A DNA stretch of 64,000 nt from Hemileia vastatrix. Lineage: Eukaryota; Basidiomycota; Pucciniomycetes; Pucciniales; Zaghouaniaceae. Below the pieces are notes generated by a model, which saw nothing but the letters and a program-made list of their open reading frames with translations, searched no databases and was not told the origin of the DNA. The position numbers and the translations under genes were made by a program. This document shows, in pieces, positions 4,453 through 61,602 of the stretch. Every line of letters begins with the position of its first letter. Positions within the stretch are counted from its first letter, which is position 1. The stretch is taken from positions 13,154,683 through 13,218,682 of the forward strand of contig JASXTE010000002.1 of the NCBI GenBank assembly GCA_030280995.1. The letters run 5' to 3'.

Positions 4453-4993
4453 ATTTAACACGTCCCTCAATGGTAGCCATAACATTCTGAGTATGTTCTA
4501 ATTTACTTTCTAAATTTCTAATCTCAGAATTCAATATTTTATTCTCATTGATTAATTCATCATTTGAATTTTAAATAGTTTTTAATTTATTGGCTGTAGT
4601 ACTCAATGATTGTGTTAGCTGTAATAATACATTTTCTGTATTATTGTTTGACTCTTTTGAGAACTCTTCCAATTTTTAAATTCTCAATAATAATTTACTT
4701 ATTATTTTTGATTCCTTTGGATTCTCTTTCAAAAAATATTCTATTTTTTTGGTGTTCAACTCAGAAGACTCATCATTTGATTCCATTTTTATATTAATAG
4801 CATTATCCTGGTGATCAATAAAACTATTTACATTGTCCTCATGTAAAGAAAAGTTTAACATATTTTTTTCAAATGAATAATCCTTTAAATCATTATCAAT
4901 AATATCAAATATTTCCTTATCAATCTTATTACCTATAATTAATTCATTTTCAGGTTGATACAATTGATTATGAGGAGTTGGATGACTTACCAA
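4453..4993 (-). pseudogene. Element A gag, N-terminal coiled-coil part
   Basis: N-terminal region of the A gag frame, downstream of the upstream ORF's stop. It is Asn/Lys/Glu-rich and predicted coiled coil, with heptad-like stretches around 4453-4530. In-frame stops occur near 4676 and 4573. The start position corresponds to the ATG of gag in B and C, but here the codon is TTG at 4991-4993 (CCTTGGTAAG instead of CCATGGTAAG). A has therefore lost the start, or never used it. Confidence 0.6.
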
Positions 4994-5463
4994 GGTCTTA
5001 TCCCACTTCCCCTGCCTCTCCTTGCCTTTCCCCTGTAAGGGCAACTTCTGGAGCCCTGCTGTTGAGGATTGTTGTAATTTTGGGCGTACCAATCCCATTT
5101 CCATTTGATTACTGTGATTTTTTGATCCTCCTCTTGGGATGGAGGTGTTGCTATAGAATTTGTGGGTGCCACTGTTGGTGGTTAAGCCTTTATGTCCACT
5201 AGAGCTTGGTTGACTTTGATGAAACCTTGAGCTGCTCTTTTCTCCAGGTTGTTGATCTGGTCCACTATATTGTTGACTCTTATTGTCAAGGTGTTCAATA
5301 GGGTGGATAGGGAGTGAATTTGTTCTTGTAATGTATTTTTTACATTCTTTATTGAAACTTGCTTTAAAAGCCTTTCCCTTTTCTCCAGAGAAATTGGCGG
5401 AGTGTTGTTTATTATGGGAGAGTCCTGGACCTCTATTTGAATGTCCTGTAACAGGTCTTTCAT
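4987..5463 (-). pseudogene. Element A ORF1: coiled-coil/KWKWD protein, frame-overlapping
   Basis: A small ORF upstream of gag in a different frame (about 158 codons), with one in-frame TAA at 5182-5184. Order: a coiled-coil half (leucine/isoleucine heptads, 5190-5463), a Pro/Ser linker, KWKWDW near 5100, a basic RGKARRGRG stretch and a terminal RPW before the stop. Elements B and C have an ORF of similar length and design at the same place, also ending in Pro-Trp. I do not recognise the family. A longer alternative frame (4676-5524) is open over the same bases but has no match to the other copies here. The role is unknown; RNA binding or assembly would be guesses. Confidence 0.6.
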
Positions 5464-5524
5464 CTCTAGGTCTTAAGTTATAAGGTTTTGCCTTATTACT
5501 TACAATGTCATTGTTGTCACACAT

Positions 5525-10929: not shown

Positions 10930-11482
10930 TAGTTCAAAAATTAGAGTCCAAATCAGAGTTAGGCTTCTTAAAATCCATTTATCTTTTAACAAAAGATTCT
11001 CCTGAATCCTATCTTTTATTTCACACAAACAGATTTAAATTTAGCTCAGTGGTTGCTGAGATATTAGCCTTTAATGTTGAGCCTTTTTTTATCAATTTCA
11101 CTTTTATTTATTTTGTGTTTTTATATTAATAAATTAAGGTTATACCTATTTGAATCACATTATCTTTTAAAGGAAAATTCTCCTGAAGCCTATCTTCCAT
11201 TTCTCGCAAATGGTTTTGGTTTTGGTTTAGTGGTTGCTGAGATATTGACCTTTAAAGTTGTTCCATTTTTTCCCAATTTTAATTTTATTTATTTCATGTT
11301 TGTATGTTGCATAATTAAAGAAAAAGGCTTATGAAGCTCTAATAATGTGTTTATATAGGATTTTAGCTCCCTTTTGTTGGAATTTTTATCATCACTTTTC
11401 AAGTTTTTGTGCAATTTTTAAAATCAGATTCAGAATTAGGATTAAGTTAATTTGAATCTAATTTTCTTTTAACGCTAGATTC
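10930..11482 (+). repeat. Array of diverged ~200-bp repeats, target of D and E
   Basis: At least three old copies of one unit, each with a CTTTTAA...GATTCT..GAA.CCTAT phrase, a GTGGTT..GAGATATT phrase and a CACTTTTATTTATTT tail. Copies start near 10930, 11140 and 11440. The third is split: its middle continues at 20151-20243 beyond element D and its tail at 27155-27190 beyond element E. The array was therefore present before both retrotransposons arrived. Confidence 0.65.
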
Positions 11483-12268
11483 TGTCATGTGCCATGTGAC
11501 ACTTGAAGAAAAAGTACCTCAAATACACCACTATTCAAGCCTAACTCCTAGCAATACACAAAAAGTGATCTTGGAACAATTACCTTCTATTGTGTTCTCA
11601 AATTAGTTGCGCTATTCAAACTTTAAAATAATCTTAAAAAATAAAGATGCTTACACTTTTAAAACTTAAGCAATGTACGTGCAGTCTAGCACTAAGGACA
11701 AGGCAATCTTCAAAAGGGGTAATTTTGGGTCTGAGGGTAAATTAGGAGGTCTGTGATAGAAGGAGCAGGATAGAAGGGATATAACGTTAGATTATTGATG
11801 GGATTTCTGGTGGATTAAATGGGTCTGTAAGTATATGGTGGACGGGTAATTAATGGGTCAGTGCAAGGAGGGATAGGATATTGAAAGGGGGTTACTTTGG
11901 TTTGAATTTCTCTAGAATTAAATTATAAAAATATATTAGTGATAGTAGTTAAATTCTTATTAAGCTATTATTATATTTGTCCTTTTCTCTCTTAATAATT
12001 AATTCTATAAAATCTTAAATACTTAAATCTTCCTTTTGATTATTAAGCTGCAACCCTTTGTGAGATTCACCATAATAGTTAGTGTCCTTACATTATAGAT
12101 AAATTATTCCTCAAAGATTATTAGAAAAAATTCTTAGTTACTCATTTATATCTTTGAATCACTTCCTCCAAGTAATTGTCTGTTCTTCAAAGTTGTAATT
12201 TCTCTCATCTATTTATCTCACTTACTTTGGGATCATCCTTTACCTTGTGCGTAGGTTGTCTGGTGACA
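11483..12268 (+). mobile_element. Element D 5' LTR
   Basis: Starts TGTCATGTGCC and ends CTGGTGACA. It is collinear with the 3' LTR at 19364-20150. No TGG-type primer-binding site follows directly: the next bases are GTATAATTTAATTC. Confidence 0.92.
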
Positions 12269-18199: not shown

Positions 18200-19247
18200 G
18201 AAACAATATTCAAGAAAAAAAACTATATACAAAAAAAAATTCTTTTCTCTAAATTATTTTTTCTTCCAATTTTCTTCAAATCAATTCCTTCATCTTCTCC
18301 ATGACTTGTCAAACTCACTTTTGACTCTTCTCAAAGACTTAATCACCTTCAGAAAACACCACCTCCCCAATATCCAACAATTCTTTTGCTATATCATATG
18401 ATGCCTAATCCATAATTTTCCCAACCTCATCACATAAACCCTTAACAAATGACATTTGAGGAGCGTGACATGGTTGCTTGGACCATAATTGATCCAAGGC
18501 TTTGACTGTTAAGTCAGCATTCTTGGTATTTGGCAGATCATTTTCAACTGGCTGTTTGACCTCAGTAGGAATTTCAGGGACTGGCCCACTGGTCGATGCT
18601 ATGGGAGTCTCCTCCGTGGTCTCCACCCCCTAAAAAAAGAAAAAAAAAGAAAAAAAAAGATCAGTTACAATCAAAGTAATAAAAATTTAAATTAAAAAGC
18701 ACTCACCCCAAATTCAGGGTCAACCTTGAGGAACAATGGTTTTTTCTCCACAAACTCTACTTCCACTTCATCATCATCCTCTCTTCAACAGGGAAGCTTC
18801 CTCCCTTGCTTGCTCTGCAGAACCTGTGACACTCTTGTCTACTTTGTCCTCTATCATCTTTCTCTTCCCCAAGGCTACATCCTTAGCCCAATCAGTTATC
18901 TCCAACCTCTCCTTCTGACTAAGTCCCTCCAATTCATCCACTTCCAAATTGCTTATAGTAGGCATGTCCCATATGTCTTCAACAACAGCCTTTGAGTCAG
19001 AAATTGACCAAAACTTTGTATTGGTGAATGGCTCAGCATTATTTTTGAGAGCCAAGGCATTACATGTCACTCAAAACCATCGAAAAAACTTGCATTTCTT
19101 TCAAGGACCTCAAGATGCCGTACTCTCCACGCAAAATAAGTCCATGGCCACACAGGCCATTCAGGGAGTCTTGAATTGTTTATTGGGAAGCCCCTTATCA
19201 GCTTGAGGGTGAGGAGGAGTAGGGTTTGGATTGGTATTTACAGGCAT
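18200..19247 (-). pseudogene. Antisense Zn2Cys6-like gene in element D (broken)
   Basis: A gene on the strand opposite to gag-pol, between pol and the 3' LTR. The ATG is at 19245-19247. It matches the E copy along its length: TPPHPQAD near the start, FCVEST, CKFFRWF, KFWSISDSKAVVEDIWD, then LFLKVDPEFG before a GTGAGT donor at 18706. The acceptor TTTTTAG is at 18630, and exon 2 contains ALDQLWSK and ASYDIAKELLDIGE. Of six cysteines in E, four remain; the first aligns to a TGA stop and the fifth is Phe. Exon 1 also carries a frameshift. Once probably a ~300-residue protein, now inactive. Confidence 0.75.
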
Positions 19248-19363: not shown

Positions 19364-20150
19364 TGTCATGTGCCACGTGACACTTGAAGAAAAAGTACCT
19401 GAATTACATCACTATTCAAGCCCAAATCCTAGTGATATGCAAAAAGAAATCTTTGAACAATTACCTTATATTGTGTTCTCAAATTAGTTGTGCTATTCAA
19501 ACTTTAAAATTATTTAAAAAAAATAAAGATGCTTACACTTTATAAACTTGAGCAATGTACACGCAGTCTAGTGCTAAGGACAAGGCAACCTTTGAAAGGG
19601 GTAATTGTGGGTCTGAGGATAAATTAGGAGGTCTTTGATAGAAAGAACAGGATAGAAGGGATATAACATTAGATGATTAATGGGAATTCTGGTGGATTAA
19701 ATGGGTTTGTGGGTATATGGTGGCTGGGTAATTAATGGGTCAGTGCAAGGAGGGATAGGATATTTAAATAGGGTTACTTTGGTTCAAATTTCTCTAAAAT
19801 TAAATTATAAAAATATATTAGTGATATTAGTTAAATTCTTATTAGGCTATTATTATATTTTTCCTTTCCTCTCTTAATAATTGATTTTATTAAATCCTAA
19901 ATACTTCAATCTTCCCTTTGATTATTAAGTTGCAACCCTTTGTGAGACTTACTATAATTGTTAGTGTCCTTACATTATACATTAATTATTCCTTGAAGAT
20001 TATTAGAAACAATTCTTAGCTACTCAGTTCTATCTTTGAATCACTTCCTCAAATTAATCCTCTGTGCTTCAAAGTTGTAATTTCCCTCATCCTTTTATCT
20101 CACTTACTTTGGGATCATCCTTGACCTTGTGCATAGGTTGTCCGGTGACA
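19364..20150 (+). mobile_element. Element D 3' LTR
   Basis: 787 bp, starts TGTCATGTGCC and ends CCGGTGACA. Followed by target copy GATTC at 20151. Confidence 0.92.
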
Positions 20151-20243
20151 GATTCTTGTGAAGCCTATATTTTATTTTCCATAAACAGATTTGAATTTGG
20201 TTCAGTGGTTTCAGAGATATTGACCTTTAAAGTTGAGCCTTTT

Positions 20244-20445
20244 TGTCACGTGCCACATGACACTCGAGGAAAAAGCAGCTCATTAAATCAATAATAAGAG
20301 TTTTAAATCCATACTCGAAGCGCAGAAAGCAATTCTGCATAGCAACTGTGACTTTCCTTTGTGTACTCGCTATTCAACTGTGCTAGTCTAAAATCTAAAT
20401 CTAAATTAGTCAATCTCTCAATAGTGTGTCTCAGTCTTTTTCTTC
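20244..20445 (+). mobile_element. Element E 5' LTR remnant
   Basis: Matches the first ~200 bp of the 3' LTR at 26344 up to the CAGTCTTTTTCTTC motif, then switches abruptly to gag sequence homologous to D near 13155. The switch shows an internal deletion after insertion, since the outer target duplication is intact. Confidence 0.88.
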
Positions 20446-23800: not shown

Positions 23801-24426
23801 CTTTCGAAACTGTCTATGGAAGACATCCTCAATTCAACTCAATCCATGTAGGAACTAATCATCCTGCAGATCATTATCTTCGAACCATATCAGGACTCCA
23901 AGAGGAACTTAAATCAAATTTGGAATTAGCGATTCAAAGGTACAAGGAACAGGCCGACAAACATTGACAATCTGCTCCTTCTTTTAAACCAGGCGACAAA
24001 GTATGGCTTGACGCACAAAACATTTGAACGACTCGACCATCAAAGAAACTGGCTGAAAAACGCTTGGGACCATTTGAAGTCGACTCTGAAGTCTCTAAAA
24101 CTGCATTTCGACTCAAGGTACCTCCTAAATGGCAGGCTATTAACCCTGTTTTCCACGTATCTCTCCTGGAACTGGCTCGAGAAACATACCTGGGCAAGAA
24201 CCAACCTCCTCCAGAACCGGTCAAAGTAGAAGACCATCTAGAGTGGGAAGTAAGCCATATCCTTGATTCAAGAATACGCAAGGGGAAACTTCAATACCTC
24301 GTGGAATGGGAAGGCTTCCTTAATGATTCAGACAAAACATCCTGGGAACCAGCCATCAATGTTTGTAACGCCCCCAAACTTCTAAAATCTTTTCCTCTTA
24401 AATATCCTTTAAAACCAAAACCTTAA
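20804..24426 (+). pseudogene. Element E pol with chromodomain
   Basis: Protease (CLIDSGASISFVSL near 20930), RT (LRLCVEYRKLNTVTKKNAYP near 21752; FGLCNAPSTFQ near 21975; VVYLDDILIFSKT near 22052), RNase H (VETDASDYAIAGV near 22495), integrase (zinc finger near 23170-23300, MDFISQVP at 23378, ISDRGSLF near 23557, YHPETNGQTERVNQ near 23640) and a chromodomain (24226-24426, ending YPLKPKP). One frame holds protease-RT and another RNase H to chromodomain, after a frameshift between 22240 and 22480. In-frame TGAs at 21017, 22465, 23701, 23791, 23965 and 24025, plus a TAA at 21908, kill it. All three integrase catalytic residues are present. Confidence 0.92.
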
Positions 24427-25251: not shown

Positions 25252-26251
25252 TTAAATTCTCTCCTTTATTTTCTCCCGAACCAATCCCTTCATCTTCTCC
25301 AAAATCTCCCTTATTTCATTCCTACATTTCTCAAAAACCTCCCCCTCTCCTACCGGTACCATTTCTCCAATTTCCAGTAATTCCTCAGCCACGTCAAAGG
25401 AGGCAGCATCGACAATCTTATCAATTTCGCCCCTTAAATCTTCAATAAACCGAGCTTGCCGAACCTGGTGAGGTTTTTTCGACCACACCTGATCAATGGT
25501 ATCTTCATTTTCCTACCTTGAGGCAATCACTGGTAATGGTTCTTCGGTTGGGATCGATGGGGCCACTTCTACAGCAGTGGCTTCCACAATGGGAGCTTCC
25601 AAATTCAAAGTTTCCACCGTAGGGGCTTCCGCAATGACATCTAAATTCTAAATCACATAGTCATCAGTAAAATTCTTCTTTGAAAAAACAAAATTAAAGT
25701 GAAGTAAAATAAAACAAACTTACTTGAAACATCGGGTCATCCTCGAGGAATAATTTTGATTTGGTTTCCGCCACCACTTCTTTCTCTTCCTCATCATCTT
25801 CAATGACCATCCGCCGTTTTTTCGGTGTCCGCCTTGAAATGGGGACTTCTTCCTCATCCACCTCCTCTTCTACCCTTCGTTTACCCATAAATCGAGTTAC
25901 CCAGGGCATTGTATCATCTTCGACTTCCTCTTAAGCTGCTTCTGACTGGTCATCTCCGATTGATACATCCCATATGTCTTCCACCACTTCTTTTGTCTTT
26001 GGTATTACCCAATATTTTGTCTTGGTAAACCGCCGTTCAATATCCGAATTTCTTGTTAAGGCATCGCAAGCCACCCATCTCCATCGACAAAACTCACATT
26101 TATGGTGAGGACCTTGAGTAGCTGTGCTTTCCACACAGAAATATTCCATGGATTCACAAGCCGTGCATGCTTGAGAATATTGTCGAGTGATGATCCCACC
26201 ATCTGCTTTGGGGTGAGGAGGCGTGGGAGCTGGAGTTAGACAAGCTGACAT
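25252..26251 (-). pseudogene. Antisense Zn2Cys6-like gene in element E
   Basis: Two-exon gene opposite to gag-pol. Exon 1 is 26251-25724 (176 codons from ATG); intron 25723-25648, 76 nt, GTAAGT...TTTAG, phase 0; exon 2 is 25647-25252. Total about 307 residues. Cysteines at residues 29, 32, 39, 52, 55 and 62 give C-x2-C-x6-C-x12-C-x2-C-x6-C, which fits the spacing of fungal Zn2Cys6 DNA-binding clusters, although the usual basic residues after the second Cys are absent and lie after the fifth (CRWRW). Then KTKYWVIPKTKEVVEDIWD, a basic patch RRTPKKRR near residue 145 in acidic surroundings, and a helical charged C-terminus. Two stops (TAA 25931, TAG about 25514) interrupt an otherwise open frame. 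Its ATG is 93 bp inside the 3' LTR. Function unknown; nuclear DNA binding is an inference. Confidence 0.78.
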
Positions 26252-26343
26252 AATAATAAATAAATAAAATTTAAATGAAGGGAGACTAGTGTGGGAAGTA
26301 TGTCTTATGCTCAACGGAGCTTGCGTTCTTATACCCGGGCATC

Positions 26344-27154
26344 TGTCACGCGCCGCGTGATACTCAAGGCAAAAGCAGCTCATTAAATCAATAATAAGAG
26401 GTTTAAATCCATACTAAAAGTGCAGAAAGCAATTCTCCATAGCAACTGTGACTTTCCTTTGTGTACTCGCTATTCAACCGCGCTAGTCTAAACTCTAAAT
26501 CTAAATTAGTCAATCTCTCAATAGTGTGTCTCAGTCTTTTTCTTCAATAAGCGACGCACAGCGCAATAGTCAATGTAATGGTGCACTAAAAGGTTTATTA
26601 AATGTCTATGAATTATTAAAAGGGGTAGTGAGAATGGATGGAATGGATAGTGGAGGACTAAGGAGTTAACGGATGTTAGTGAGGAGGGTCCAGGTGTAAT
26701 GGGTGTATTTTAATGGTCTGTGGTGTGCGGAATAGTGGATGGGTATGAGGTCAATGCGAGGAGGAGTAAAGGATATAAAAGGGGTTGAGTTTTTGGTTCG
26801 ATACTCTTTAGAATTAAATTATAGAACGTATATATAGTTAATAGTGGTAAAGCTTTAGGTTAAATCATTATTATTGTATCTTTCCTTATTTCCTCAAATA
26901 ATCATTTCTAAATCCTAAATCTTTTGATTATTGAGTTTCCAACCCTTCTTGAGATTTTAAGAATTTTAATATTACCTTTAAATTATATTAGAATCCTTCT
27001 CAAACATATCTAGAAGCAGTAGCTCTTCCTTTGAGTCATCTTTGAATCACTTCCTCAAATATTTCCTCTGTGCATCGAAGAAGTTTCTAAACTCCTCCCT
27101 CCATCTCACTTCCAGGAACACCCTCAACCTTTGTGCATAGGTCGTCCAGTGACA
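26344..27154 (+). mobile_element. Element E 3' LTR
   Basis: 811 bp, TGTCACGCGCCGCG to CCAGTGACA, with TATAAAAGGGG near 26776 as a likely promoter. It keeps CpG sites that are TpG or CpA in the 5' remnant and in D. Confidence 0.92.
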
Positions 27155-27190
27155 CTTTTTTTCACAATTTCACTTTTATTTATTTCATAA

Positions 27191-31783: not shown

Positions 31784-33046
31784 ATGAAGCACCTCCGTAC
31801 TAGGAAGCAACTTCACACAGCTATAAATTCTATCACTTTAGTTTTAGCTGCTGACTCTGATTCTTACTGTGGTTTGGAAGACACTTTAGCTTATATGTCT
31901 TAACTTTCCAAAAAGTGTTACATCATCCCAAGGGGGCCAAATCTTTATCATGATCCCAGATATGATTTCCACTCCATTCTCAACATTCCTCAACTAAAAT
32001 TCACTTAAATATTTACAACTTCTCCTGATTCTTTTTTCAAACTTTTTCAAATTGTCTCCAATCATCCTATCCTCCATAATAATTCCCATAACAAACAGCC
32101 TGATCCTGCCTTTCAACTTGCTGTCGCACTATGTTGCTTTGGTTCAAATAGAAATGGTGCTGCTGTAAGACGTTTAGATAATCTCTTTACCATAAGATAT
32201 GGTACCATCATATTATACACCAAGCGCTGCATGATTGCTATCCTTTCTCTCAAGTCTCAACCACTTGCTTGGCAAGCTCCACAACAGTGACTTGAATCCT
32301 CTCAAGTAATGCAAGCAAAAGGTTTCCATGGATGTGTAGGTTTTGCTGATGATACAAATATACCTTTGAGTCAAAAGCCTGCTCATGATGGCAACCATTA
32401 TTTTGATTGAAAAAAAAGGTTTCTTCAAAATGTTCTCCAATTTCTCATCTTTCATAAACTAAATTTTTATCTTCTTTGTAGATACTCTATTGCCTTTCAA
32501 CTTGTCTGTGCCATCAACAAAAAGTTTATTGCTTTTCATAGTGGCTTCCCCGGCTCATGTTATGACTCTTCCGTCTTCCAAAGAATGAGGATTTCTCAAG
32601 TTCCTGACTCATACTATGACAAATCTCATCACCTCCTTGCAGATTCAGCATATGCAAGTTGAAATTACATTATACCTGCTTTCTGTGGTGCAAATTTAGA
32701 AAAAGACCCCAAAACTACCTTTAATTATCACCTTTCCCAATTAAGAGTATGGATTGAACATGCTATTGGGATTTTAAAGGGAAGATTTTATAGTCTCCGG
32801 GAACTCAGAATCCAATTTCAAAAAAAAATGGAAGTAAAAACTGCAAATTAATGGATAATGACTTGCATTATAATCTACAATTTCCTAGCTGATTTAAAGG
32901 ATGAGTGGAATGATCTTTATGAAGAAGAAGATCATAAACCAGCACCGGCTCTCCCCTCCCTTGAATCACAAAACATTCATTCAACCGGCATACACTCTGT
33001 CATTATGCCAATCACCCTCCACCATTTTTACACACAACCCTTTTAA
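31784..33046 (+). pseudogene. PIF/Harbinger (HARBI1-like) transposase relic
   Basis: DDE-type transposase of the HARBI1 family, which cuts and pastes PIF/Harbinger elements. One frame from ATG 31784 carries the whole protein, with in-frame stops near 31901, 32006, 32288, 32408, 32660 and 32849. The three acidic catalytic positions can be placed: FADDTNIPL near 32342, GSCYDSSVF near 32551, and WIEHAIGILKGRF near 32750 (Glu). The N-terminal helical part (LAVALCCFGSNRNGAAVRR near 32118) also fits. About 420 codons, normal for the family. The 3' end is duplicated at 34261. No terminal repeats were found directly around it. Confidence 0.85.
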
Positions 33047-33360
33047 TTTTTTGTTTTTATACTCTACAAATGTTCACTTTGTATACTTTACTCACTTGGC
33101 TTGGTATTTCTGTTTGTTGCATATTCTTTTTTATGAATTTATGGTGAATATCTCTATTTTGGATGGCTCCTTGGTTTTCTTTCACCAGCTCAACATGAAA
33201 TCACATATTTTTTCAGTGTTTCTTTTTTTCATTCTTCACTAATATCCTTTTCCTCCTCTCCTCAAACATCCCTCAAATATTTTGGTTGCATTTTTTTTAA
33301 CTCATCTCACCAGGTAAGTCATTTTTTGAATTTTTATTGAATTTTTATTTGCTAATCATG

Positions 33361-33433
33361 TTTTTTTTTTTGCTTTTTTTTGCTTTTTTTTGCTTTTTTT
33401 TGCTTTTTTTTGCTTTTTTTTGCTTTTTTTTGC

Positions 33434-33469
<36 letters not shown>

Positions 33470-33684
33470 TTTGCTTTTTTTTGCTTTTTTTTGCTTTTTT
33501 TTGCTTTTTTTTGCTTTTTTTTGCTTTTTTTTGCTTTTTTTTGCTTTTTTTTGCTTTTTTTTGCTTTTTTTTGCTTTTTTTTGCTTTTTTTTGCTTTTTT
33601 TTGCTTTTTTTTGCTTTTTTTTGCTTTTTTTTGCTTTTTTTTGCTTTTTTTTGCTTTTTTTTGCTTTTTTTTGCTTTTTTTTGC

Positions 33685-33720
<36 letters not shown>

Positions 33721-33748
33721 TTTTGCTTTTTTTTTGCTTTTTTTTTGC

Positions 33749-33785
<37 letters not shown>

Positions 33786-33790
33786 TTTGC

Positions 33791-33841
<51 letters not shown>

Positions 33842-33893
33842 GCTTTTTTTTGCTTTTTTTTTGCTTTTTTTGCTTTTTCTTGCTTTTTTTTGC

Positions 33894-33929
<36 letters not shown>

Positions 33930-33944
33930 TTTGCTTTTTTTTGC

Positions 33945-33981
<37 letters not shown>

Positions 33982-33987
33982 TTTTGC

Positions 33988-34024
<37 letters not shown>

Positions 34025-34055
34025 TTTTGCTTTTTTTGCTTTTTTTTTGTTTGTT
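33361..34055. repeat. (TTTTTTTTGC)n array 1, ~69 copies
   Basis: Ten-bp unit repeated for nearly 700 bp, with a few 9- and 11-bp units towards the right end. All three plus-strand frames are open but encode only Phe/Leu/Cys/Ala low complexity, so they are not genes. A-tracts in register every ten bases are expected to curve DNA strongly. Confidence 0.97.
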
Positions 34056-34972
34056 TTTGTTTTTTTAATTTTTTAATTTTGTAAGTGCTTCAATTATTTT
34101 TGTTCAAGGTTAAACTAATTTTTTTCCCTCCCTCTTTTCTCTCCCTCTTTTCTCTCCCTCTTTTCTCTCTTGTCCTCCTTTTCCCTCCTTTCACCCCCTT
34201 TCACCCCCTTTCACCCCCTTTCACCCCCTTTCACCCCCTTTCACCCCCTTTTCCCCCCCTCATATGCAAGTGGAAATTACATTATACCTGCTTTCTGTGG
34301 TGCAAATTTAGAAAAAGACCCCAAAACTACCTTTAATTATCACCTTTCCCAATTAAGAGTATGGATTGAACATGCTATTGGGATTTTAAAGGGAAGATTT
34401 TATAGTCTCCGGGAACTCAGAATCCAATTTCAAAAAAAAATGGAAGTAAAAACTGCAAATTAATGGATAATGACTTGCATTATAATCTACAATTTCCTAG
34501 CTGATTTAAAGGATGAGTGGAATGATCTTTATGAAGAAGAAGATCATAAACCAGCACCGGCTCTCCCCCTCCCTTGAATCACAAAACATTCATTCAACCG
34601 GCATACACTCTGTCATTATGCCAATCACCCTCCACCATTTTTACACACAACCCTTTTAATTTTTTGTTTTTATACTCTCCAAATGTTCACTTTGTATACT
34701 TTACTCACTTGGCTTGGTATTTCTGTTTGTTGCATATTCTTTTTTATGAATTTATGGTGAATATCTCTATTTTGGATGGCTCCTTGGTTTTCTTTCACCA
34801 GCTCAACATGAAATCACATATTTTTTCAGTGTTTCTTTTTTTCATTCTTCACTAATATCCTTTTCCTCCTCTCCTCAAACATCCCTCAAATATTTTGGTT
34901 GCATTTTTTTTAACTCATCGCACCAGGTAAGTCATTTTTTGAATTTTTATTGAATTTTTATTTGCTAATCAT

Positions 34973-35205
<233 letters not shown>

Positions 35206-35335
35206 TGTTTTTGTTTTTTTAATTTTTTAATTTTGTAAGTGCTTCAATTATTTTTGTTCAAGGTTAAACTAATTTTTTTCCCTCCCTCTTTTCTCTCCCT
35301 CTTTTCTCTCCCTCTTTTCTCTCTTGTCCTCCTTT

Positions 35336-35690
35336 TCCCTCCTTTCACCCCCTTTCACCCCCTTTCACCCCCTTTCACCCCCTTTTCCCCCCTTTCCCCC
35401 CCTTTCCCCCCCTTTCCCCCCCTTTTCCCCCCTTTCCCCCCCTTTCCCCCCCTTTCCCCCCCTTTCCCCCCCTTTCCCCCCCTTTCCCCCCCTTTCCCCC
35501 CCTTTCCCCCCCTTTCCCCCCCTTTCCCCCCCTTTCCCCCCCTTTCCCCCCCTTTCCCCCCCTTTCCCCCCCTTTCCCCCCCTTTCCCCCCCTTTCCCCC
35601 CCTTTCCCCCCCTTTCCCCCCCTTTCCCCCCCTTTCCCCCCCCTTCCCCCCCTTTCCCCCCCTTTTCCCCCCTTTTCCCCCCTTATTCTC
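35336..35690. repeat. (CTTTCCCCCC)n array, ~35 copies
   Basis: Again a ten-bp unit. The first units are of the type CTTTCACCCC, the rest CTTTCCCCCC. The complementary strand has runs of seven G every ten bases, and the whole block is pure pyrimidine on one strand. Proline-rich frames here are artefacts. Confidence 0.97.
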
Positions 35691-36180
35691 TTTCTAACCC
35701 CTGATTCCCCCCTTCCCCCCCTTGTATCCCCTTTAGGTGTTCTTTTTTCCCTCTTTAGGCCCTCTTTACCCCCCCTGTACTCCCTTTTCCCCCCTTTAGG
35801 TGGCCTCACCCCTCTCCCCCCTCCCCCCTCCCCATTTTCCTTGGCTCCTCTTCCCTTTTATCCCTAAACAATTGGAGCTGGACCAATTTTTTATTACTAA
35901 ACAAATCTCTTAGTGATTTGTTTAGATATATATCTATGGGAAGAAGGGAAGGAAAGAGGTGAGGGGGGAGGGGGGAAAGGAATAAGGGGTAGGGGGATGA
36001 GGGGGGAAAGCGGTGGAGGGGATAGTGGGATGAGGGGGGGGGGGGAAGGGGTGAGGTGGTCTAAAGGGGGGAAAAGGGAGGAGGAACTTGTGAAAAAGGG
36101 GGGTAAGGGGATTTTGAGGAGATCAAGAAGGGGGAGGCAGGGTTTGAGGACACCAAAAAGAGGGAGATGAAGCAGAAATG
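35691..36180. repeat. Imperfect inverted repeat with C-rich to G-rich strand switch
   Basis: The left part (35691-35860) is pyrimidine-rich and the right part (35935-36180) purine-rich. The reverse complement of the left arm shares GTGAGG...CTAAAGGGGGGAAAAGGGAG with the right arm at about 36050-36085. At the centre is a perfect 11-bp stem, CTAAACAAATC / GATTTGTTTAG, at 35898-35926. Confidence 0.7.
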
Positions 36181-37545: not shown

Positions 37546-37550
37546 TATAC

Positions 37551-38360
37551 TGTCAAGGGGTCTTTCAAGTCTAGAAGGTTTTATAGGGAGGTCCAATGGC
37601 GGTAACGACGGTTTTTAAGGGATTCAAACTCAGGTACGTATTTTCCTATATTAAAGATTATTTACTCAATAATAAGAGGTAAAGAGTTGGATTATTATTA
37701 AAATTAATGGATTAGAATTACGTTTAATGTAACTACTAAGGCAATAATAAATAGTAATAAAAGGATTGTAAATAGTTGTAATAAAATAAATAAGTAATCA
37801 ATGAATAAAAAACAGCCAAGAGAGAGGCCTTATATAGGCAAAGGAGGGACAAACTACGGCAATGAAATTCTAAAAACAGTAGTATGAGAGAGAGAGAAAA
37901 AGAATATTCCAGAAGGAGTATTTCAAATAACAAAGTTGTTCTAAAAAGAAGGTGTCAAAAAGATGTATTTTAAAGATGTATTTACAGAGTATGTCAGAAA
38001 AACATAAATTTATTTAATATTTACTGTAGAAGTCAATTCCAAATAATAAATTTGAATTTTTTGTATATATTTATTTTTATTTGAATATTAAATTTTATTT
38101 TAATTTAAAATCTATTTTTTAATATAAAATTTTACTTCTTCCAACCTTTCAATGAGCACGGTGTTAGAGAATAAAAATATAAGGGACATTTTATATTTAA
38201 TTTTAATTATTCATTTAATTTTACCATTCTGTAACTAGTTAATATATTACAGGTAATTTTAATGTAACTAATTTAATTAAATAATTAAAATAATAAGGTG
38301 TGGCTTCATCTAGTAAATAATTAATTATTTTACTGGGTAAGTCTAGTAGCCTGGCTGACA
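37551..38360 (-). mobile_element. Element B 3' LTR
   Basis: Plus-strand ends TGTCAAGGGG and GGCTGACA. About 55 bp longer than the partner, owing to extra A/T-rich stretches near 37695 and 38090. Confidence 0.94.
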
Positions 38361-38372
38361 CTCCCTCACTCT
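38361..38372 (-). promoter_or_regulatory. Polypurine tract of B
   Basis: Minus strand AGAGTGAGGGAG abuts the 3' LTR. Identical sequence in C at 54765-54776. It primes plus-strand DNA synthesis. Confidence 0.85.
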
Positions 38373-38393
38373 AAAAAAACAATAATAAAAATG

Positions 38394-39933
38394 CTATGAT
38401 TTTTTCTTTTTATATTTCTTTATCAGAGTGGGAAGATTACATATTTCCTTCCCAGGTATCCAAGAATCATATTCAGAAGATTTATTCTTGAATCTCAACA
38501 AGTATTCTGTACCTTTTTCAGCAGTAACTATTGTGTCATTTAGAATCTTATCAATTTCTGCTGTCTCAGTGATTTCATTATGGGTCTTTTTTGGTCTTCC
38601 CCTCCTTTTGGGAAATAAATCACTATTGGATGTATAAGGTTTCAAAAGAGATATTAGAAAAATAGGATGTTTTCTGTCATATGGAGAATACAAAATAACT
38701 TCAACTGCATTATCACCAATCATTCTTCTTACAACAAATGGACCAACAAATGGGTCTTTCAATTTGTTATTACCTTGTAAATTGAAGTGGACTGTAGAAA
38801 TCAACACCTCATCACCCTTTTTAAAAGTGTATTCTTTATCGGATTTGTCCCATCTCTTCTTCTCATATTCAAATGATTTTTCAATACATTTTTGAGCATG
38901 ACTCCTGCAAAGTTGTTTCATTTGAAGAAAAGATTTTACACCAGGATGTAAATCCAATTTAGGTATTTTATTATTGAGAATTTGGGCAGGAGTATTTGGA
39001 ACATATCCAAGCCAGAGCTCAAAAGGCTTTCTTTGAGTAACAGAATTAACAGTGCTATTATAAGCAAATTCCAACCCAGGCAGTAAGGTAACCCAATCAT
39101 GAGTGAATCTGTTATTCTCTTTGTACTCAAGGCCAAAGGTACAGTACCTTCTTATCATGTCCTCTAGAGTCTGAATCATTCTTTCAGCTAATCCATTAGT
39201 CTGAGGGTGATGGGCAGTAGATAGTTTCAGATCACAACCACACACATCCATCAGAGACATCCAAAATTCAGAAGTAAATTTAGGGTCTCTGTCAGAAATT
39301 ATGGCTTTAGGAAAACCAGAAGTATTAAACATATGAGACCACCATAAGAAAGCTAATTCCCTAGTGGATACATCCTTGTTAGTAGGGATAAATTTACACA
39401 TTTTGGTGAATCTGTCCACAATAGCCCAACAAGAGTTATAACTGTCTTTTCCAGCAATAGGTAATCCTGTTACAAAATCCATGTTTATTATCTGCCATGT
39501 TGCATCAGAAGGTTCAATATGTTGCATTAATCCAGCTCTCTTGCCAGTAAATCTTTTTGATTTTTGGCAAGAATCACAAGATTCAACATATAATTTGGTG
39601 TCTTCAGACATATTAACCCACCAAGCAGTGTTTTTAATTCTGATCATTGTTTTTTCAAGATCAAAATGTCCAGCTAATATGTCATCATGACAAATTTTCA
39701 AGATGATTTCTTTCATAGAAGGAGGAATAACAATGACATTACTCAACTTTCTTCTATAATATAGATATCCTTCATCAATTGAAAATTTACCTTTTTCCAA
39801 AGCCCTCTGGTACTTTTTTGGAAGGGTTTTAATTAATTCTTGTATTGAAGCATTCTTTGGATCATTTAATATGGTGCATAACTTTTTCAAGTCAGTGTCC
39901 TTATCATATGAATCCAGAATAAGCTGTAATATC
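38394..39933 (-). pseudogene. Element B integrase with chromodomain-like tail
   Basis: About 500 codons, open at 38394-39890 and closed upstream by a TAG near 39933 that interrupts the RNase H-integrase linker. Zinc-binding H-H-C-C: CHDDILAGHFDLEK and CDSCQKSK. Catalytic core: MDFVTGLP, ISDRDPKFTSEFW and HPQTNGLAERMIQTLE supply D, D and E. The C-terminal barrel VGPFVVRRMIGDN is followed by a basic RRGRPKK and a chromodomain-like TEYLLRFKNKSSEYDSWIPG. It is in another frame from the preceding ORF because of one extra base near 40088. The protein fragment itself looks intact and could be functional if translated separately. Confidence 0.9.
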
Positions 39934-40087
39934 TATTCCTCCATATCAACCACATATTTCCCATGAATATGAATAAATTCATCCTCAGGATCATAAGCAG
40001 GATTAGAGTCATCATTTGGTAAAGGTAACCTTGATAACATATCCACATTTGAGTGAACAATACCAGCCCTATGAATAATTTTCATTC

Positions 40088-43000
40088 CCCTCTGTATTCC
40101 TGAACAGCTAACTGTTATCTGAACATATGTCTGTTAGGTGTTTTCAAGTTTAAAAGGGATTTAACTGCACTGCAGTCAGTAACAAGTTCAAATTTCTGGT
40201 CATCTAGGTAATAATGTAGCTTTTCTAGAGCCCACACTATGTCTAAACATTCAAGCTGAGTGGCACCATATTTCAATTCACTATTTCTCAAGGTTCTTGA
40301 AATATAACAAATTACTACTTCTGATACTTTATCATTCATCACTTGTTTTTGATGGAGAGCAGCACCAAGACCAATAAAACTGGCATCAGTGTACAAAACA
40401 AATGGCTGATTAAAGTCAGGTAAAGAAAGAATTGGTGTTGACATCAAAAAGTGTTTCAAAGTGTCAAAAGCTCTCTGTCTTTCACTATTCCAGACAAAAG
40501 CAACATCCTTTCTAGTCAGTTGGGTAAGGGGTGAAGCTATGACTTGGTAGTTTTTAATATACTGTCTATAGTATCCACACATTCCCAAAAAACTCTGGAG
40601 CTCTCTAAACGTGGTAGGAGCCTTCACCTGCTGTATGGCTGCCACTTTATTTTGGTCAACACATATCTGTAACCCTGAAACAACATGACCCAGCACTTTT
40701 AAGGAATGAAAACCAAATTTACATTTCTTCAAAGCAAGTGTCATATTTATTTCATCCATTTTGTGGAATGCTTTACACAGGTGGGTGAGATGGTCCTCAA
40801 ATGTTTTTGAGAATATAATGATATCATCAATATAAACCATCAGCCATCCTTCAATTATTTCTTGGTGGAATGTGTTATCCATAACTTTTTGAAAAACTGA
40901 AGGGGCATTTTTAGGGCCAAATGGCATCCTAATATACTTATAAATACCCATATGAGTAGCAATCATCAGAAAATTCTGGGAATTATTCTCAACAGGTACC
41001 TGGTGATATCCCTTGTTACCATCCAAGCAGCTTATATATTTTGCACCTTGTAAGGTAGCATGTATATAGCTAATTCTAGGTAAAGGGTAGATATCATCAA
41101 CAGTATAAGTATTTAAAGCTCTATAATCACCACATAACCTGGCTTTGTCCTTCTCAAAAAAAATTAGGACAGGTGAGATAACAAAATATTTAGGTGCTTC
41201 AACTACCTTTTCAATAATATCCATTTTCAAAAGGGTAGAGATATTATCCTCAATATCTTTTCTCTTTGAAGGAGAAGCAGGGTAAGGCTTCTTCTTCAAA
41301 CTAGGTGGTATGTCAGTTAATGGACAAGATAATGAAAGTTTCATTTCTTCCTTAACTAATCCTAGTTCATGTGACCCATGAGCAAAGGCCATAGGAAAAG
41401 ATTTTATCAATTTAATGATGGAATCTTTATCCTCACCAGAAATTTGTTCTCCAAAAGAAGCATTGTCAATTTCAGACATAAGAGCATGCATTTCCTTTGT
41501 AGACCTTCCTTTATATTGAATCACAGAATTACATGTGTTCAATTCTGGTTTTAATAATTTTTTGGGGGAGGAAATCTTAAGTTTTCTCTTCCCATTCATC
41601 CCCATTGTGAAGCATTGGTTTGAAGGATCTAATTTTATGCCATATTTGGTTAAAATGTCATTTCCTATGATAAACCAACTGCTTAAATTATCATTTTTCA
41701 TGACAACAAAATCACAAATAGCTCTTACAAAACCATGGTTATATTTAAAAAACACTGTGGCTTTGTATTTACCAATGGGGGACAAAACAGAGCCATAAAC
41801 TCTCCAATTTTCAGAAATGATAGGCATCAGTTTTGATTTATAGTCTTGATCCACTGAAGCAAGTGCTGTTTCAGATACTACACTTCCTCCAGCTCCAGAA
41901 TCCAGAACAACTTCAATGCTGGTAACATTGATCAAGACTGGTGCTTTGAGAGGGGCAATAACAATTGAGCTATCCTTAATGTTCCTTATGATCTCAGCAT
42001 CCTCAACTGTAGATAAATCATTATTATCAATATAAATAGTGTTTAAATAATGAATATCTTCTTCCAGCATCAAGATTTCTTGTTGAGATTCATATGAAAT
42101 ATTGCTGGCACAATCACTTGAAGTATCATCCAGTGCTATTGTGTCATCAGCCTGCTCCTCAGTTTGTTCAACAAGATTTATCCTCTTGTCACAAACATGG
42201 CCTTTCTGCAAAGTCTTGTTGCACTTGAAGCAAGTGTTTGTTGCATACTTTTTAGATGCAACAGGGGCAGAAGGTTTACCAACCTTTTCCAGAGGTTTCT
42301 GTTGGTAAGTGGAGTATTTCTCCAAAGGGGTCCTAGGAATGAATCTTCTGGCATCATACTTTTTGTTTAGAAGGATCTCATTGCAATTATTAATGAAAGA
42401 ATAGGGTTCTCTGGAGAACTCAGTCCTGGCCACTATCAAGTCTCTCAAAGACATTGGTAATTTATAAAAGATCCCGTCCTTCCATAACTCAAACTCCATA
42501 TTTGGGTCCATTTCCCTCAAGATTTTTACAAGTTTCATTAAGAACTCAATAGTTTTATCAGTAGAAGAGCTATATCTAGCTTCCTCATACTGTCTTTGTT
42601 GAGCCATCCTAAACTTGGAGCCACCAAATTGTGCTTTAATCAATTTTTTCCAATCTTCCCATGAGTAGTCATTCCTATCCAGGAGAACAGATTCATACCG
42701 CATTAGGGCTACATTGATAAACAAAGAAATTAACTTATACACAATTTCCTCATCTGGGAGTTTGTAAGAATTTTTTAAGTTATCAGTTCTACTAATGAAT
42801 TGCTGCCAATCAGAAGAAGAATCACCATCAAATGTTGGGTACTGGTCATGTTTTGGCCAATTCTTTTGATTTGAAGGAGCCTCCTTAGTATTAGCTTGTT
42901 TCTGAGTAAGAAGCAGCTGTAACTTCTCCAATTGTGCAGTAATCTCATTGTTTAATACTTCTGTAGAAGATCCTGGTGCATTATCAATTTTTGATGGAAA

Positions 43001-43816
43001 CTCAGTGGTATCAACAGGAATTTCTGAATCTAATTTTACTTTAGATGAACTAGCAACAGGTAAACTTGGAGCATCCTGTACCATATGTTCCTTTAAAGAA
43101 GTTTCAGAATATTTTTGATCATTCAACAATCAATTCAATTTTTCTTCAATGGTTGTTAGTCTGGTTTTCACTCTTGGAAGACTAGATAAACTCTCATTGA
43201 CTGTTGCAAAAGATAACTGGGTTTTATTTTGAAAAGATGAATAATGATCACTCAATCTTTTCAGGTTCATCTTATCTACCTCTAGCTCCAGGCAACAGGT
43301 AGATACAGTATCTTGCAGTTTAGACAAATCATTTTTAATATTTTGCCATAAAGCAACTTTCTTTTCATGGGTTGCTTTGTAATGAAACAAATAATCAGAA
43401 ACTCTCTGTAACTCACTCCTCAATGCTTGATAACCCTGTTAAGTTAACAAACTATTATATATGTGAGTCAATTGCATGTTATTCATTATATGATTTTGTT
43501 TAGCAATAATATCCCTCAAATATTCATCATTAATGTTAGCTACATCTGGAGTGTTTCTCAATAAGGAAACAGAGTAACTTTCCAGATTATCATAAAACTC
43601 AGAATCAAGTGTTTCATCAATAATAGCCATATCAGGACTTATCATTGAAGTAGCAATTAGAACTAAAGGATTAGATACATTTGAAATTTGAGTAATTTGT
43701 CTACTGTTCTCAGCCTCTACAGGTCTCACAGTCTCATCTCCTCTTCCAGAATTACCTGAAGGAACTGAATCAGTTACAAGAAATGGTACTTGAGATTCAA
43801 TAGAGGGGCTTACCAT
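40088..43816 (-). pseudogene. Element B gag-protease-RT-RNase H
   Basis: One frame from ATG 43814-43816 to TAA 40115, about 1233 codons, with internal stops TAA 43439 and TGA 43130. Order: N-terminal region (NPLVLIATSMISPDMAI conserved with C), coiled coil, gag core (NWPKHDQYPTFDGDSSSDWQ near 42850), zinc knuckle CFKCNKTLQKGHVC, protease VVLDSGAGGSVVSE near 41890, RT (RMPFGPKNAPSVFQ near 40905; YIDDIIIFSKTF near 40820), RNase H (LYTDASFIGLGAALHQ near 40370). Gag and pol share a frame without a frameshift signal. The last stop replaces a Trp that is present in A and C. Confidence 0.92.
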
Positions 43817-44292
43817 GGCTTGGGAAAGACTTGGATGTGGTTGTTCTTTCTCCTTCTTCCTCCTTGATAGGGATGAGGAGGTATTGGATTGAACTGATTT
43901 GTTCTTGAAGGACCTGCCTGAGGTACTTGGTGCTGTTGCTGTTGGGACAGATAATCCCACTGGGTGTTCAGCCAATCCCACTTCCACTTTGAGACTTCCA
44001 CCTTTTCTTGTTTCTGGGGGGCCAGTTGTGGAAGGGCTTTTGGAGGAGGAGGTTTCTTCTTCTCTTGAAGAAAAGACTTTATGTTTCTTACCTTGTCTTC
44101 TAGACAGTCTATCCTTGACCTCAGCTTGAGGTTTTCTGTCCTCAACTCCTTGATGTGAGTAGAGAGATTTTTTACCTGCTGTTTTAAGGGCATCTTTTTT
44201 ATCTTGAAGCCTTTGGGAAGCTCTTCTGCGGGGTTTATCAAAGGTTTTTGTTCCTGGGAATTTGTCTCTACCAGAATCTCCACTTCCTCCAT
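43810..44292 (-). CDS. Element B ORF1: coiled-coil/KWKWD protein
   Basis: An open 160-residue frame upstream of gag in another frame. ATG at 44290-44292, aligned with the ORF1 ATG of element C; an upstream GTG start is less likely and a TGA lies just before it. N-terminus KPLINPAEELPKGFKIKKM, then a coiled coil (QQVKNLSTHIKELRTENLK), Lys/Pro and Gln-rich linkers, SKWKWDWLNTQWDYL, GGRRRK and the end FPKPW. The stop TAA overlaps the gag ATG as ATGGTAA. Seven bases separate ORF0 from ORF1. C shows clear similarity in both halves. I know no family. Dual coding with the open gag-frame extension is the alternative. Confidence 0.7.
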   Translation of the reverse strand: MEEVEILVETNSQEQKPLINPAEELPKGFKIKKMPLKQQVKNLSTHIKELRTENLKLRSRIDCLEDKVRNIKSFLQEKKKPPPPKALPQLAPQKQEKVEVSKWKWDWLNTQWDYLSQQQQHQVPQAGPSRTNQFNPIPPHPYQGGRRRKNNHIQVFPKPW

Positions 44293-44299
44293 TTCCACG

Positions 44300-44431
44300 T
44301 CATGATTGGTTCAATGATTTATTAATTTGAGCTAATTTTGTAGTTAAAGGAGAACTCACAGAAGTAGACTCATCATAATCAATAAGATGCAGTTCATCTT
44401 CAAGTGCAGCAGAAAAATCTTGGTCAGTCAT
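44300..44431 (-). CDS. Element B ORF0: small acidic peptide
   Basis: 43 residues, start MTDQDFSAALEDELHLIDYD, followed by a Ser/Thr stretch SVSSPLTTKL. Element C has a 36-residue ORF at the same place with similar acidic LH..D and SVGSSKLT parts. It may be a short protein or a regulatory upstream ORF. Evidence is modest because of its size. Confidence 0.45.
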   Translation of the reverse strand: MTDQDFSAALEDELHLIDYDESTSVSSPLTTKLAQINKSLNQS

Positions 44432-44529
44432 TGTTTTAAATCTAACCTGAGGTGAGGGAAAGAAAAAATAAGATGAATCAGTTTTATTTTTGCTTTATAA
44501 AATAAAAATAAATAAAAAAAGAATACAAA

Positions 44530-44920
44530 ACTCTTCAGGATAAAAATCAACTGAAAATAATAATCAATTATTTATTACTTCAAACTAATCTTATAACCAG
44601 GATTAAAAAGAAATCAACTGAAGAAATAAAAATAATTTTTTAATTTAACAAATAAATTAATGATGATTATCAGGATTTAAATCAACTGAAGGATATTTAA
44701 TTACCAGGACTCAATGTCAACTGAGATAATTTAGTATAGTTTTATTTTTTATTAATTAAATTTTTTATTGTCAGGACAATTTGTCAACTGGAACAAAAAA
44801 AATATTTTAATTTATAAGGACAAAGTCAACTGAAAATTACAATTAATTTTAAAAAAATAAAAATTTATTACTTCTAGGACTAAGATCATAATTGCTCTAT
44901 CTTTGTCAACTAGGAAAATA
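44530..44920 (-). repeat. Leader repeats in B (seven AGGAY..TCAACTG motifs)
   Basis: In the transcribed leader a composite motif, plus-strand AGGA(C/T) then 5-28 bases then TCAACTG or TCAACTA, recurs at about 44537, 44599, 44671, 44705, 44773, 44817 and 44877. Spacing is 34-72 bp, and the sequence between is A/T filler. C's leader has a related GGACTAAG...GGTCAAC motif at 61170-61310. Confidence 0.65.
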
Positions 44921-45259
44921 AATAAATAAAATAATTTCAATTTACCAGACACCTCCCCCTGTAAAATGAGAAAATTAATGCCACTTACATAGTGCCAAGT
45001 AAAAGGAAATACGTAGAGTATGAAGAGTGCAAAGTGACCCACAAATAGTAATCAATAATTACCACAAAATATATAACTATTAGTTAGAATATAAGCCTAA
45101 GTTTTGGAGCGTGGTTTTATTCCTGTTCGCAGCAAAAAATAAGTCACATGATATATGATGTTTGTCGTTTTCGTTGTCCACTCGTCCTTATAGGTACCTC
45201 AATGGCGATGGTCCCATGGTCTCCGGTCCTCAAGATAACAATTCTCCATTGACGATTCA

Positions 45260-45271
45260 GAAAGGCCCCCA
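45260..45271 (-). promoter_or_regulatory. Primer-binding site of B
   Basis: Minus strand TGGGGGCCTTTC, two bases after the 5' LTR. Shares the pattern TGGRRRCCTTTC with A and C. Confidence 0.75.
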
Positions 45272-45273
45272 AC

Positions 45274-46028
45274 TGTCAAGGGTTCTTTCAAGTCTAGAAG
45301 GTTTTATAGGGAGGTCCAATGGAGGTAACGACGGTTTTTAAGGGATTCAAACTCAGGTACGTATTTTCCTATCTTAAAGATTATTTACTCAATAATAAGA
45401 GGTAAAGAGTTGGATTAGAATTACGTTTAATGTAACTACTTAGGAAATAATAAATAGTAATAAAAGGATTGTAAATAGTTGTAATAAAATAAGTAAGTAA
45501 TGAATGAATAAAAAACAACCAAGAGAGAGGCCTTATATAGGCAAAGGAGGGACAAACCACAGCAATGAAATTCTAAAAACAGTAGTATGAGAGAGAGAGA
45601 AAAAAGAATATTCCAGAAGGAGTATTTCAAATAACAAAGTTTTTCTAAAAAGAAGGTGTCAAAAAGATGTATTTTAAAGATGTATTTACAGAGTATGTCA
45701 GGAAAACATAAATTTATTTAATATTTACTGTAGAAGTTAATTCAAAATAATAAACTTGAATTTTTTGTATATATTTATTTTTATTTGAATATTAAAATTT
45801 TATTTCTTCCAACCTGTCAATGAGCATGGTGTTAGAGAATAAAAATATAAGGGACATTTTATATTTAATTTTAATTATTCATTTAATTTTACCATTCTGT
45901 AATTAGTTAATTTATTACAGGTAATTTTAATGTAACTAATTTAATTAAATAATTAAAATAATAAGGTGTGGCTTCATCCAGTAAATAATTAATTATTTTA
46001 CTGGGTAAGTCTAGTAGCCTGGCTGACA
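45274..46028 (-). mobile_element. Element B 5' LTR
   Basis: 755 bp with the same termini as the 3' LTR. A TATA box (minus strand GCCTATATAAGG) lies near 45529-45543. Confidence 0.94.
45529..45543 (-). promoter_or_regulatory. Element B LTR TATA box
   Basis: Minus strand GCCTATATAAGGCC, in the active 5' LTR, about 255 bp from its inner end. Same motif in the C LTRs and, with one change, in the solo LTR. Confidence 0.65.
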
Positions 46029-54764: not shown

Positions 54765-54776
54765 CTCCCTCACTCT
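54765..54776 (-). promoter_or_regulatory. Polypurine tract of C
   Basis: Minus strand AGAGTGAGGGAG, directly next to the 3' LTR and identical to B. Confidence 0.85.
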
Positions 54777-54799
54777 AAAAAAACAATAAAAAAAATGCT

Positions 54800-60786: not shown

Positions 60787-60814
60787 TTCCACATCCTGAA
60801 AGTTTTTTGTCGGC

Positions 60815-60925
60815 TTAATAACTTTTGTAAGTTAATTTAGAAGAACCTACAGATTCAGTGTCATTATCCACTTCAATCTCATCTACATGTAAGGTATCCA
60901 TGCTGTTAGCCAAACTACTGGACAT
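60815..60925 (-). CDS. Element C ORF0: small acidic peptide
   Basis: 36 residues: MSSSLANSMDTLHVDEIEVD, then TESVGSSKLTYKSY. Open and located like ORF0 of B, 28 bases before ORF1. Too short for a firm claim. Confidence 0.4.
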   Translation of the reverse strand: MSSSLANSMDTLHVDEIEVDNDTESVGSSKLTYKSY

Positions 60926-61590: not shown

Positions 61591-61602
61591 GAAAGGCTTC
61601 CA
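61591..61602 (-). promoter_or_regulatory. Primer-binding site of C
   Basis: Minus strand TGGAAGCCTTTC, two bases after the LTR end. It supports placing the LTR border at 61605. Confidence 0.7.

Follow-up and report, generated by a model that had tools for sequence, protein, structure and literature searches.

Thousands of copies of a Ty3/gypsy chromovirus in the genome of Hemileia vastatrix carry, between pol and the 3′ LTR and on the opposite strand, a gene of their own, and the protein of this gene was under selection while the element spread. The place of the gene, its two exons with their conserved splice signals, its conserved cysteine segment and the selection on its protein are the established part. 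What is such a protein for? From the sequences at hand, its most likely role would be to bind DNA and regulate the LTRs of its own element, a reading to which we give even chances.

The window analysed here, a stretch of 64,000 nucleotides (assembly GCA_030280995.1, contig JASXTE010000002.1, positions 13,154,683 to 13,218,682), contains two related elements, E and D, each with a copy of the gene. E lies on the plus strand and is a Ty3/gypsy chromovirus; Pfam scans found the reverse transcriptase, RNase H, integrase and C-terminal chromodomain of this class (PF00078, PF17917, PF00665, PF00385, PF24626). Its integrase C-terminus and chromodomain occupy 24064-24426 (+; PF24626, and PF00385 with E=9e-11), and its 3′ LTR, at 26344-27154 (+), is followed by the target-site repeat CTTTT (27155-27159). 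The same CTTTT at 20239-20243 precedes a 5′ LTR remnant (20244-20445, +), which consists of the first ~200 bp and is joined by a deletion to a region located in the gag part of D. D is a longer relative of E with LTRs of 786 and 787 bp (89% identical), at 11483-12268 and 19364-20150 (both +), flanked by GATTC target-site repeats at 11478-11482 and 20151-20155. Two further LTR elements lie on the minus strand of the window, at 37549-46028 and 53513-62883, with LTR identities of 90.4% and 97.6%. In both of these families the last pol frame, the integrase end, almost abuts the 3′ LTR, and neither gave a match to the antisense gene. Elsewhere in the window, a tandem duplication within 32649-35767 (32649-33610 and 34261-35228, 97.8% identical) bears long TTTTTTTTGC and CCTTTCCCCC arrays, and a 282-codon frame at 4676-5524 (-) matches DUF960 below threshold (22.8 bits, cut-off 25, E=1.4e-4).

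In E the antisense gene, read on the minus strand, runs from 26251 to 25255 and is flanked by the chromodomain ORF and the 3′ LTR, which is where the first-pass annotation had placed it. Exon 1 (25724-26251, -; 176 codons), which is homologous in all of the 30 copies described below, contains six cysteines at codons 29, 32, 39, 52, 55 and 62 (26066-26167, -), and on rereading their spacing is indeed C-x2-C-x6-C-x12-C-x2-C-x6-C, which is conserved. It also contains the basic patch RRTPKKRR at codons 140-147 (25811-25834, -), a possible nuclear signal. A phase-0 intron of 76 nt (25648-25723, -; GTAAGT...TTTAG) separates it from exon 2 (25252-25647, -, stop codon included), whose 131 codons end at 25255. 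The homolog that had been pointed out in D is the same gene, at 19247-18252 and with four of the six cysteines remaining: a broken exon 1 (18707-19247, -), an intron at the same position (18630-18706, -) and a broken exon 2 (18252-18629, -). As for the ~307-residue product first proposed for E, the two exons stand and the intact frame does not, since a TAA interrupts exon 1 at codon 107 (25931-25933, -) and a TAG interrupts exon 2 at codon 221 (25513-25515, -). In D the gene is broken by nine in-frame stops and a single frameshift. Both copies are pseudogenes, broken after insertion, and these dead copies still bear the signature of a protein. When all frame pairs of D and E were aligned as proteins, the top two alignments were exon 1 (score 271) and exon 2 (200), the best pair on the other strand scoring 172. 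Differences between D and E fall on the three codon positions of the antisense gene as 129/111/189 (chi-square p=9e-6), and its pN/pS is 0.51 (bootstrap 0.43-0.61). Much stronger evidence comes from tests across the family.

How widespread is this gene? The assembly searched comprises 747.6 Mb in 791 contigs. A search of it with residues 1-106 of E returned 6,085 first-look candidates, and all of the 150 that were scored match at 79% identity or more; the D exon gave 5,754 candidates, and among the 150 scored the identities, D itself aside, are 58-75%. A degenerate K-C-E-F-C-x-W pattern has 2,637 exact matches in the genome (1,324 + 1,313) and the reversed pattern, used as a control, has none; the motif is present in 25 of the 30 copies read. 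Listed gene copies of the E and D types are spread over about twenty contigs. The 30 E-type copies that were read, E included, are the best-scoring ones and so not a random sample. All 30 have a GT..AG intron at one place, 55-79 nt long, with the 5′ splice site GTAAGT in 28 and GTAATT in two and with TAG at the 3′ end in every copy. The exons differ in length from those of E by a multiple of three in 17/30 (exon 1) and 22/30 (exon 2), and most of the remaining exon-1 lengths bear one recurrent deletion of 16 bp. Two subfamilies with ~40% protein identity both have the intron at the same place. The six cysteines are kept in 29, 30, 30, 30, 28 and 30 of the 30 copies, and a D-type copy with an open exon 1 (L052) has all six with the same spacing. 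In the basic patch, R140, K144 and K145 are kept in 27-28 of 30, and R141, R146 and R147 are variable, with Q or W as the usual replacements. The suggestion of a family-wide gene is borne out in that the two-exon antisense gene is widespread in the family, as seen from the 2,637 motif matches and the intron in 30 of 30 copies.

It is to be noted that the place of the gene within the element was looked at from both sides. Among 20 ten-kb regions chosen by the gene, 15 have an LTR pair with the gene immediately inside the 3′ LTR, which backs its position as an accessory antisense ORF located between pol and this LTR; in 19 a sense-oriented chromodomain lies upstream. When copies were chosen by the chromodomain only, in a stretch of contig C2 with listed motif places, the gene was at the expected place and strand in five of seven (four through the exon-1 motif, one through exon 2), and controls in opposite orientation and upstream gave 0; these seven are a small sample, taken from the best 150 chromodomain places. 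In the other two the gene may be missing or its motif altered. Genome-wide, an exon-2 place accompanies at least 5 of the 150 chromodomain places (E being one of them), and on C2 the exact exon-1 motif lies at the right distance from at least two of eight exon-2 places, although 25 of the 30 copies read have this motif; both overlaps are lower bounds, because the chromodomain and exon-2 lists each hold the best 150 of thousands. This comparison covered 46 of 150 exon-1, all 150 exon-2 and all 150 chromodomain places and 100 of the 2,637 motif places. The linkage of gene to chromodomain is thin in these lists, and we count this against our best explanation. In some copies of the family the pol frame is open throughout, reaching up to 1,237 codons. 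At one place (G000:C631:28354780-28370408) three equal-scoring chromodomain matches follow one another at intervals of 7,634-7,635 bp, and every one has a 769-codon open frame; they are perhaps a tandem array of young elements with common LTRs. A search of genome contigs with pol gave one short match, a 3.8-kb contig filed under a Synechococcales metagenome-assembled genome (L001, CADCWO010000091.1), which encodes a 42% relative of the RNase H-integrase region of E and is probably eukaryotic contamination; the search of viral contigs with pol found none.

If selection acts only during mobility, variants shared among copies should avoid amino-acid changes and private ones should not. Variants shared by at least three of the 30 copies fall on codon positions 66/64/143, with a ratio of nonsynonymous to synonymous changes (N:S) of 137:134, and private variants fall on 125/115/125, with 286:78, the neutral N:S by site counts being 3.66 (shared vs private, Fisher p=1.6e-13). 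Because shared variants stand at 137:134 and private ones at the neutral ratio, the protein was under selection as long as the elements were mobile, and its decay followed their insertion. Fixed differences between the two main clades (18 vs 12 copies) are 13:26 and fall on codon positions 7/7/26. Reading the copies one or two bases out of frame moves the excess to another codon position, as is expected of an excess on the third positions of the antisense gene. Two artefacts were considered and rejected. CpG decay does not account for the signal, since after removal of every column with a CpG in any copy the shared variants are still 62:64 vs 219:48 for private ones (p=8e-11). Selection of copies by the query does not account for it either, since the part of the gene outside the query gives the same result (p=4.5e-9). 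In 16 copies, E included, the RNase H-integrase part of pol has 37:47 shared vs 206:60 private, and the antisense gene in the same 16 has 75:79 vs 147:83 (p=0.003), so that by its shared variants the antisense protein is conserved like the other element genes. The contrast in these 16 is weaker than in all 30, which we count against our best explanation; it is perhaps due to the smaller number of copies, by which some old variants count as private. Purifying selection, the check that had been proposed together with the annotation, is thus found family-wide in the 30 copies, both in shared vs private variants and in the differences fixed between clades.

These data bear on three other explanations. 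An open frame might have arisen by chance and its cysteine spacing likewise, and the stops in both copies of the window would agree with this. It is contradicted by the intron in every copy, the contrast of shared and private variants, the cysteines, the motif matches and the clade-fixed differences; since the family-level tests, of selection and of fixed differences, refute it, we hold it hardly credible, and the gene is probably an accessory control gene. Another possibility is that one lineage picked up a fragment of a host gene, which then multiplied as a passenger. An intron resembles a feature of host genes, but two subfamilies of ~40% identity both keep the gene at one place, it exists in thousands of copies, and selection is seen between the main clades, which makes such a capture very unlikely. 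A third explanation, that not a protein but the antisense RNA is functional and limits the element by forming dsRNA and siRNAs with genomic RNA, appears slightly more improbable still. The antisense overlap with the genomic RNA is ~1 kb, and such a role is raised as a possibility for plant elements in a review (PMC7264820). Against it, the shared variants avoid amino-acid changes, the codon-position excess remains tied to the same bases under a shifted frame, and the cysteines are near-invariant. Selection at the amino-acid level argues against antisense RNA as the sole function, and an RNA may act in addition.

How old and how decayed are the copies? In 15 copies the paired LTRs share 90.4-96.7% identity; the copies sampled are therefore not recent insertions. 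Both exons are stop-free and in frame in only one of the 30. Codon 46 is a stop in 11 copies, Arg in nine, Gln in nine and His in one, and codon 56 is a stop in six and Arg or Gln in the others; we read these recurrent stops as CpG decay, CGA having changed to TGA or CAA. The remaining stops arose in several ways, most often from TGG to TGA (10), and C to T does not dominate among private changes overall. An RIP-like process, which was also considered, is not indicated by these two observations. The recurrent deletion removes 16 bp (19 bp in L016) between TGGGTAA repeats at about codons 115-121 of E, and it is found in 10 of 30 copies (L003, L004, L009, L010, L011, L016, L022, L023, L024 and L027), which are spread over seven distinct clades of a FastTree tree with weak support for its shallow branches. 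It can shorten the frame to about 121 codons with the cysteine segment retained. Probably, either repeat-mediated slippage in reverse transcription or a tolerated short form lies behind it. Since this frameshifting deletion is so frequent and scattered over the tree, not every copy requires the protein at full length. We count this, the age of the sampled copies and their broken frames against our best explanation.

What kind of protein is encoded? Fungal Zn2Cys6 proteins have the consensus spacing C-x2-C-x6-C-x5..12-C-x2-C-x6..8-C and basic residues between the second and the third cysteine. The antisense protein fits this spacing (x2, x6, x12, x2 and x6 in E, and also in L052), and the second half of its segment is basic (C-E-F-C-R-W-R), as in Gal4-type factors. 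The first-pass annotation had likened it to fungal Zn2Cys6 clusters, and as far as spacing is concerned this holds in both subfamilies. Membership in PF00172 has to be given up: none of ten copies reaches the 21-bit cut-off, the best score being 10.2 bits over residues 52-64 only. Two copies match below threshold (10.2 and 8.3 bits), with alignments confined to the second cysteine triad. Between Cys2 and Cys3 the protein is acidic and not basic, ESMEYF in 19 of 30 copies and mostly a one-letter variant of it in the rest. The protein thus differs from Gal4-type factors in its sub-cut-off score and its acidic first loop, and no solved relative was found, a PDB search giving no match better than E=0.66. 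Pfam scans of the protein gave no match above cut-off, and neither the public protein database nor viral contigs gave a relative of the gene, negative results which, with that of the PDB search, count against our best explanation. A single-sequence structure model has a mean pLDDT of 34 and is uninformative as to a binuclear zinc fold. By its sequence, the six-cysteine segment is Zn2Cys6-like, with a putative fold. When the genome was searched with PF00172, 13 matches were found among 150 scored of 3,260 candidates, and none of these 13 places coincides with a listed gene copy. Twelve of them lie at positions below 111 kb on contigs without listed copies (C472, C511, C313, C446, C632, C698 and others), and these contigs are possibly foreign fungal DNA in the assembly.

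Outside the coding part, two further features are conserved. A TATA box (TATAA, 26329-26333, -), which predicts an antisense promoter, lies 82 nt upstream of the ATG of E, and TATAA is found at -81 to -97 from the ATG in all 30 copies, 29 by pattern and L016 by eye. The 3′ LTR of E begins with a 19-bp dyad, TGTCACGCGCCGCGTGATA (26344-26362, the first 19 bp of the LTR), which reads TGTCA-N9-TGACA exactly in 24 of 30 copies and is off by one or two letters in the other six, E among them. From start to start, dyad and TATAA are 29 nt apart in all 24 copies with the exact dyad. In the ten-kb regions the dyad is found within two letters at the expected LTR tip in 20 of 20, and it opens all four LTRs of D and E in the window (at 11483-11501 and 19364-19382 in D). 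The LTRs of the other two families of the window start with TGTCAGCCAGGCTA or a close variant, without the dyad.

From these features a mechanism can be drawn. Transcription of the antisense mRNA would begin from the TATA box next to the 3′ LTR, and the transcript would be spliced. How can the intron outlast transposition? The genomic RNA would contain only its reverse complement, which is no substrate for splicing, and it is because of this orientation that the intron would not be removed. The product of ~300 residues, with a six-cysteine segment of metal-binding type, a basic patch, an acidic middle and a helical tail, would enter the nucleus and act on the element's own LTRs through the dyad at their tips. 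The dyad of the 3′ LTR is 29 nt away from the antisense TATA box, and that of the 5′ LTR lies on the outer flank of the sense promoter region. With these positions, the protein would control its own gene and also damp or time sense transcription, a dual control in the manner of HBZ of HTLV-1. A regulatory function is plausible, and an HBZ-like nuclear regulator of the element's own LTR would be the most likely form of it. It is to be noted that the dyad contains CACGTG, and its role may simply be to serve a host bHLH factor or end recognition by integrase; we count this against the regulator.

The main rival is a selected antisense protein which works in replication or integration, as a nucleic-acid-binding partner in the cDNA complex, as an adaptor for nuclear import or as a targeting factor beside the chromodomain. 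The same data on selection and conservation fit it, the cysteine segment is no recognisable Zn2Cys6 DNA-binding domain, and in a review antisense ORFs of plants are suggested to have roles in the nucleus or in the integration complex (PMC7264820). However, the gene's own predicted TATA promoter beside the dyad suggests expression timed separately and not packaging with gag-pol, and the Pfam scans gave no motif for such roles. We consider it a serious possibility, though one on the lesser side of probable. The LTR regulator remains our preferred reading. Its full form, an independently arisen HBZ-like circuit in which a spliced antisense gene encodes a metal-cluster DNA-binding protein recognising an LTR-tip palindrome and in which an intron is tolerated only because it is antisense, is tentative and rather unlikely as a whole; if it is true, each new LTR would bear the operator. 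Whichever is the case, the family gives an example of how an intron-bearing gene can persist in a retroelement. With thousands of copies, selection on an antisense protein can be read directly from shared vs private variants, and the predicted promoter, the intron and the candidate binding site at the LTR tip make the function of an antisense gene testable. What antisense genes do in LTR retrotransposons is described as unknown in two sources (PMC7264820, PMC11963269).

Several known systems resemble this gene. Antisense ORFs between pol and the 3′ LTR are described in plant elements and in Boty elements of Botrytis (PMC7264820, PMC8365987), so the suggestion that such a gene would be new is right only in part. 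What appears to be new is the conserved intron, the metal-cluster-like segment and the LTR-tip dyad. In the passages of open-access literature searched for fungal antisense genes, no intron-bearing example with a cysteine cluster was found. Gene23 of maize Grande, RIRE2 of rice and ORF4 of Silene Retand are described as being at the same place and strand and family-wide; a promoter of its own is reported for gene23, and a long pol-to-LTR region with tandem repeats for Retand (PMC7264820, PMC11963269). In the same accounts these are plant elements with TRP28, SMC or unknown domains, Retand belonging to a non-chromovirus lineage, and no intron or cysteine cluster is mentioned in them (PMC7264820, PMC11963269). 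Brtn of the Boty-like elements of Botrytis cinerea is described as an extra antisense gene of a fungal LTR element and listed beside the plant cases (PMC7264820, PMC8365987); fungus and element are different. The nearest functional analogue, by analogy only, would be HBZ of HTLV-1. Together with aph of HTLV-2/3/4, hbz is described as antisense, driven by the 3′ LTR and spliced, the proteins being mostly nuclear, and HBZ, APH-3 and APH-4 lower the output of the 5′ LTR (PMC10186651). These products are bZIP or unrelated proteins of animal retroviruses, to which no homology is claimed, the promoter and function in H. vastatrix being predicted ones.
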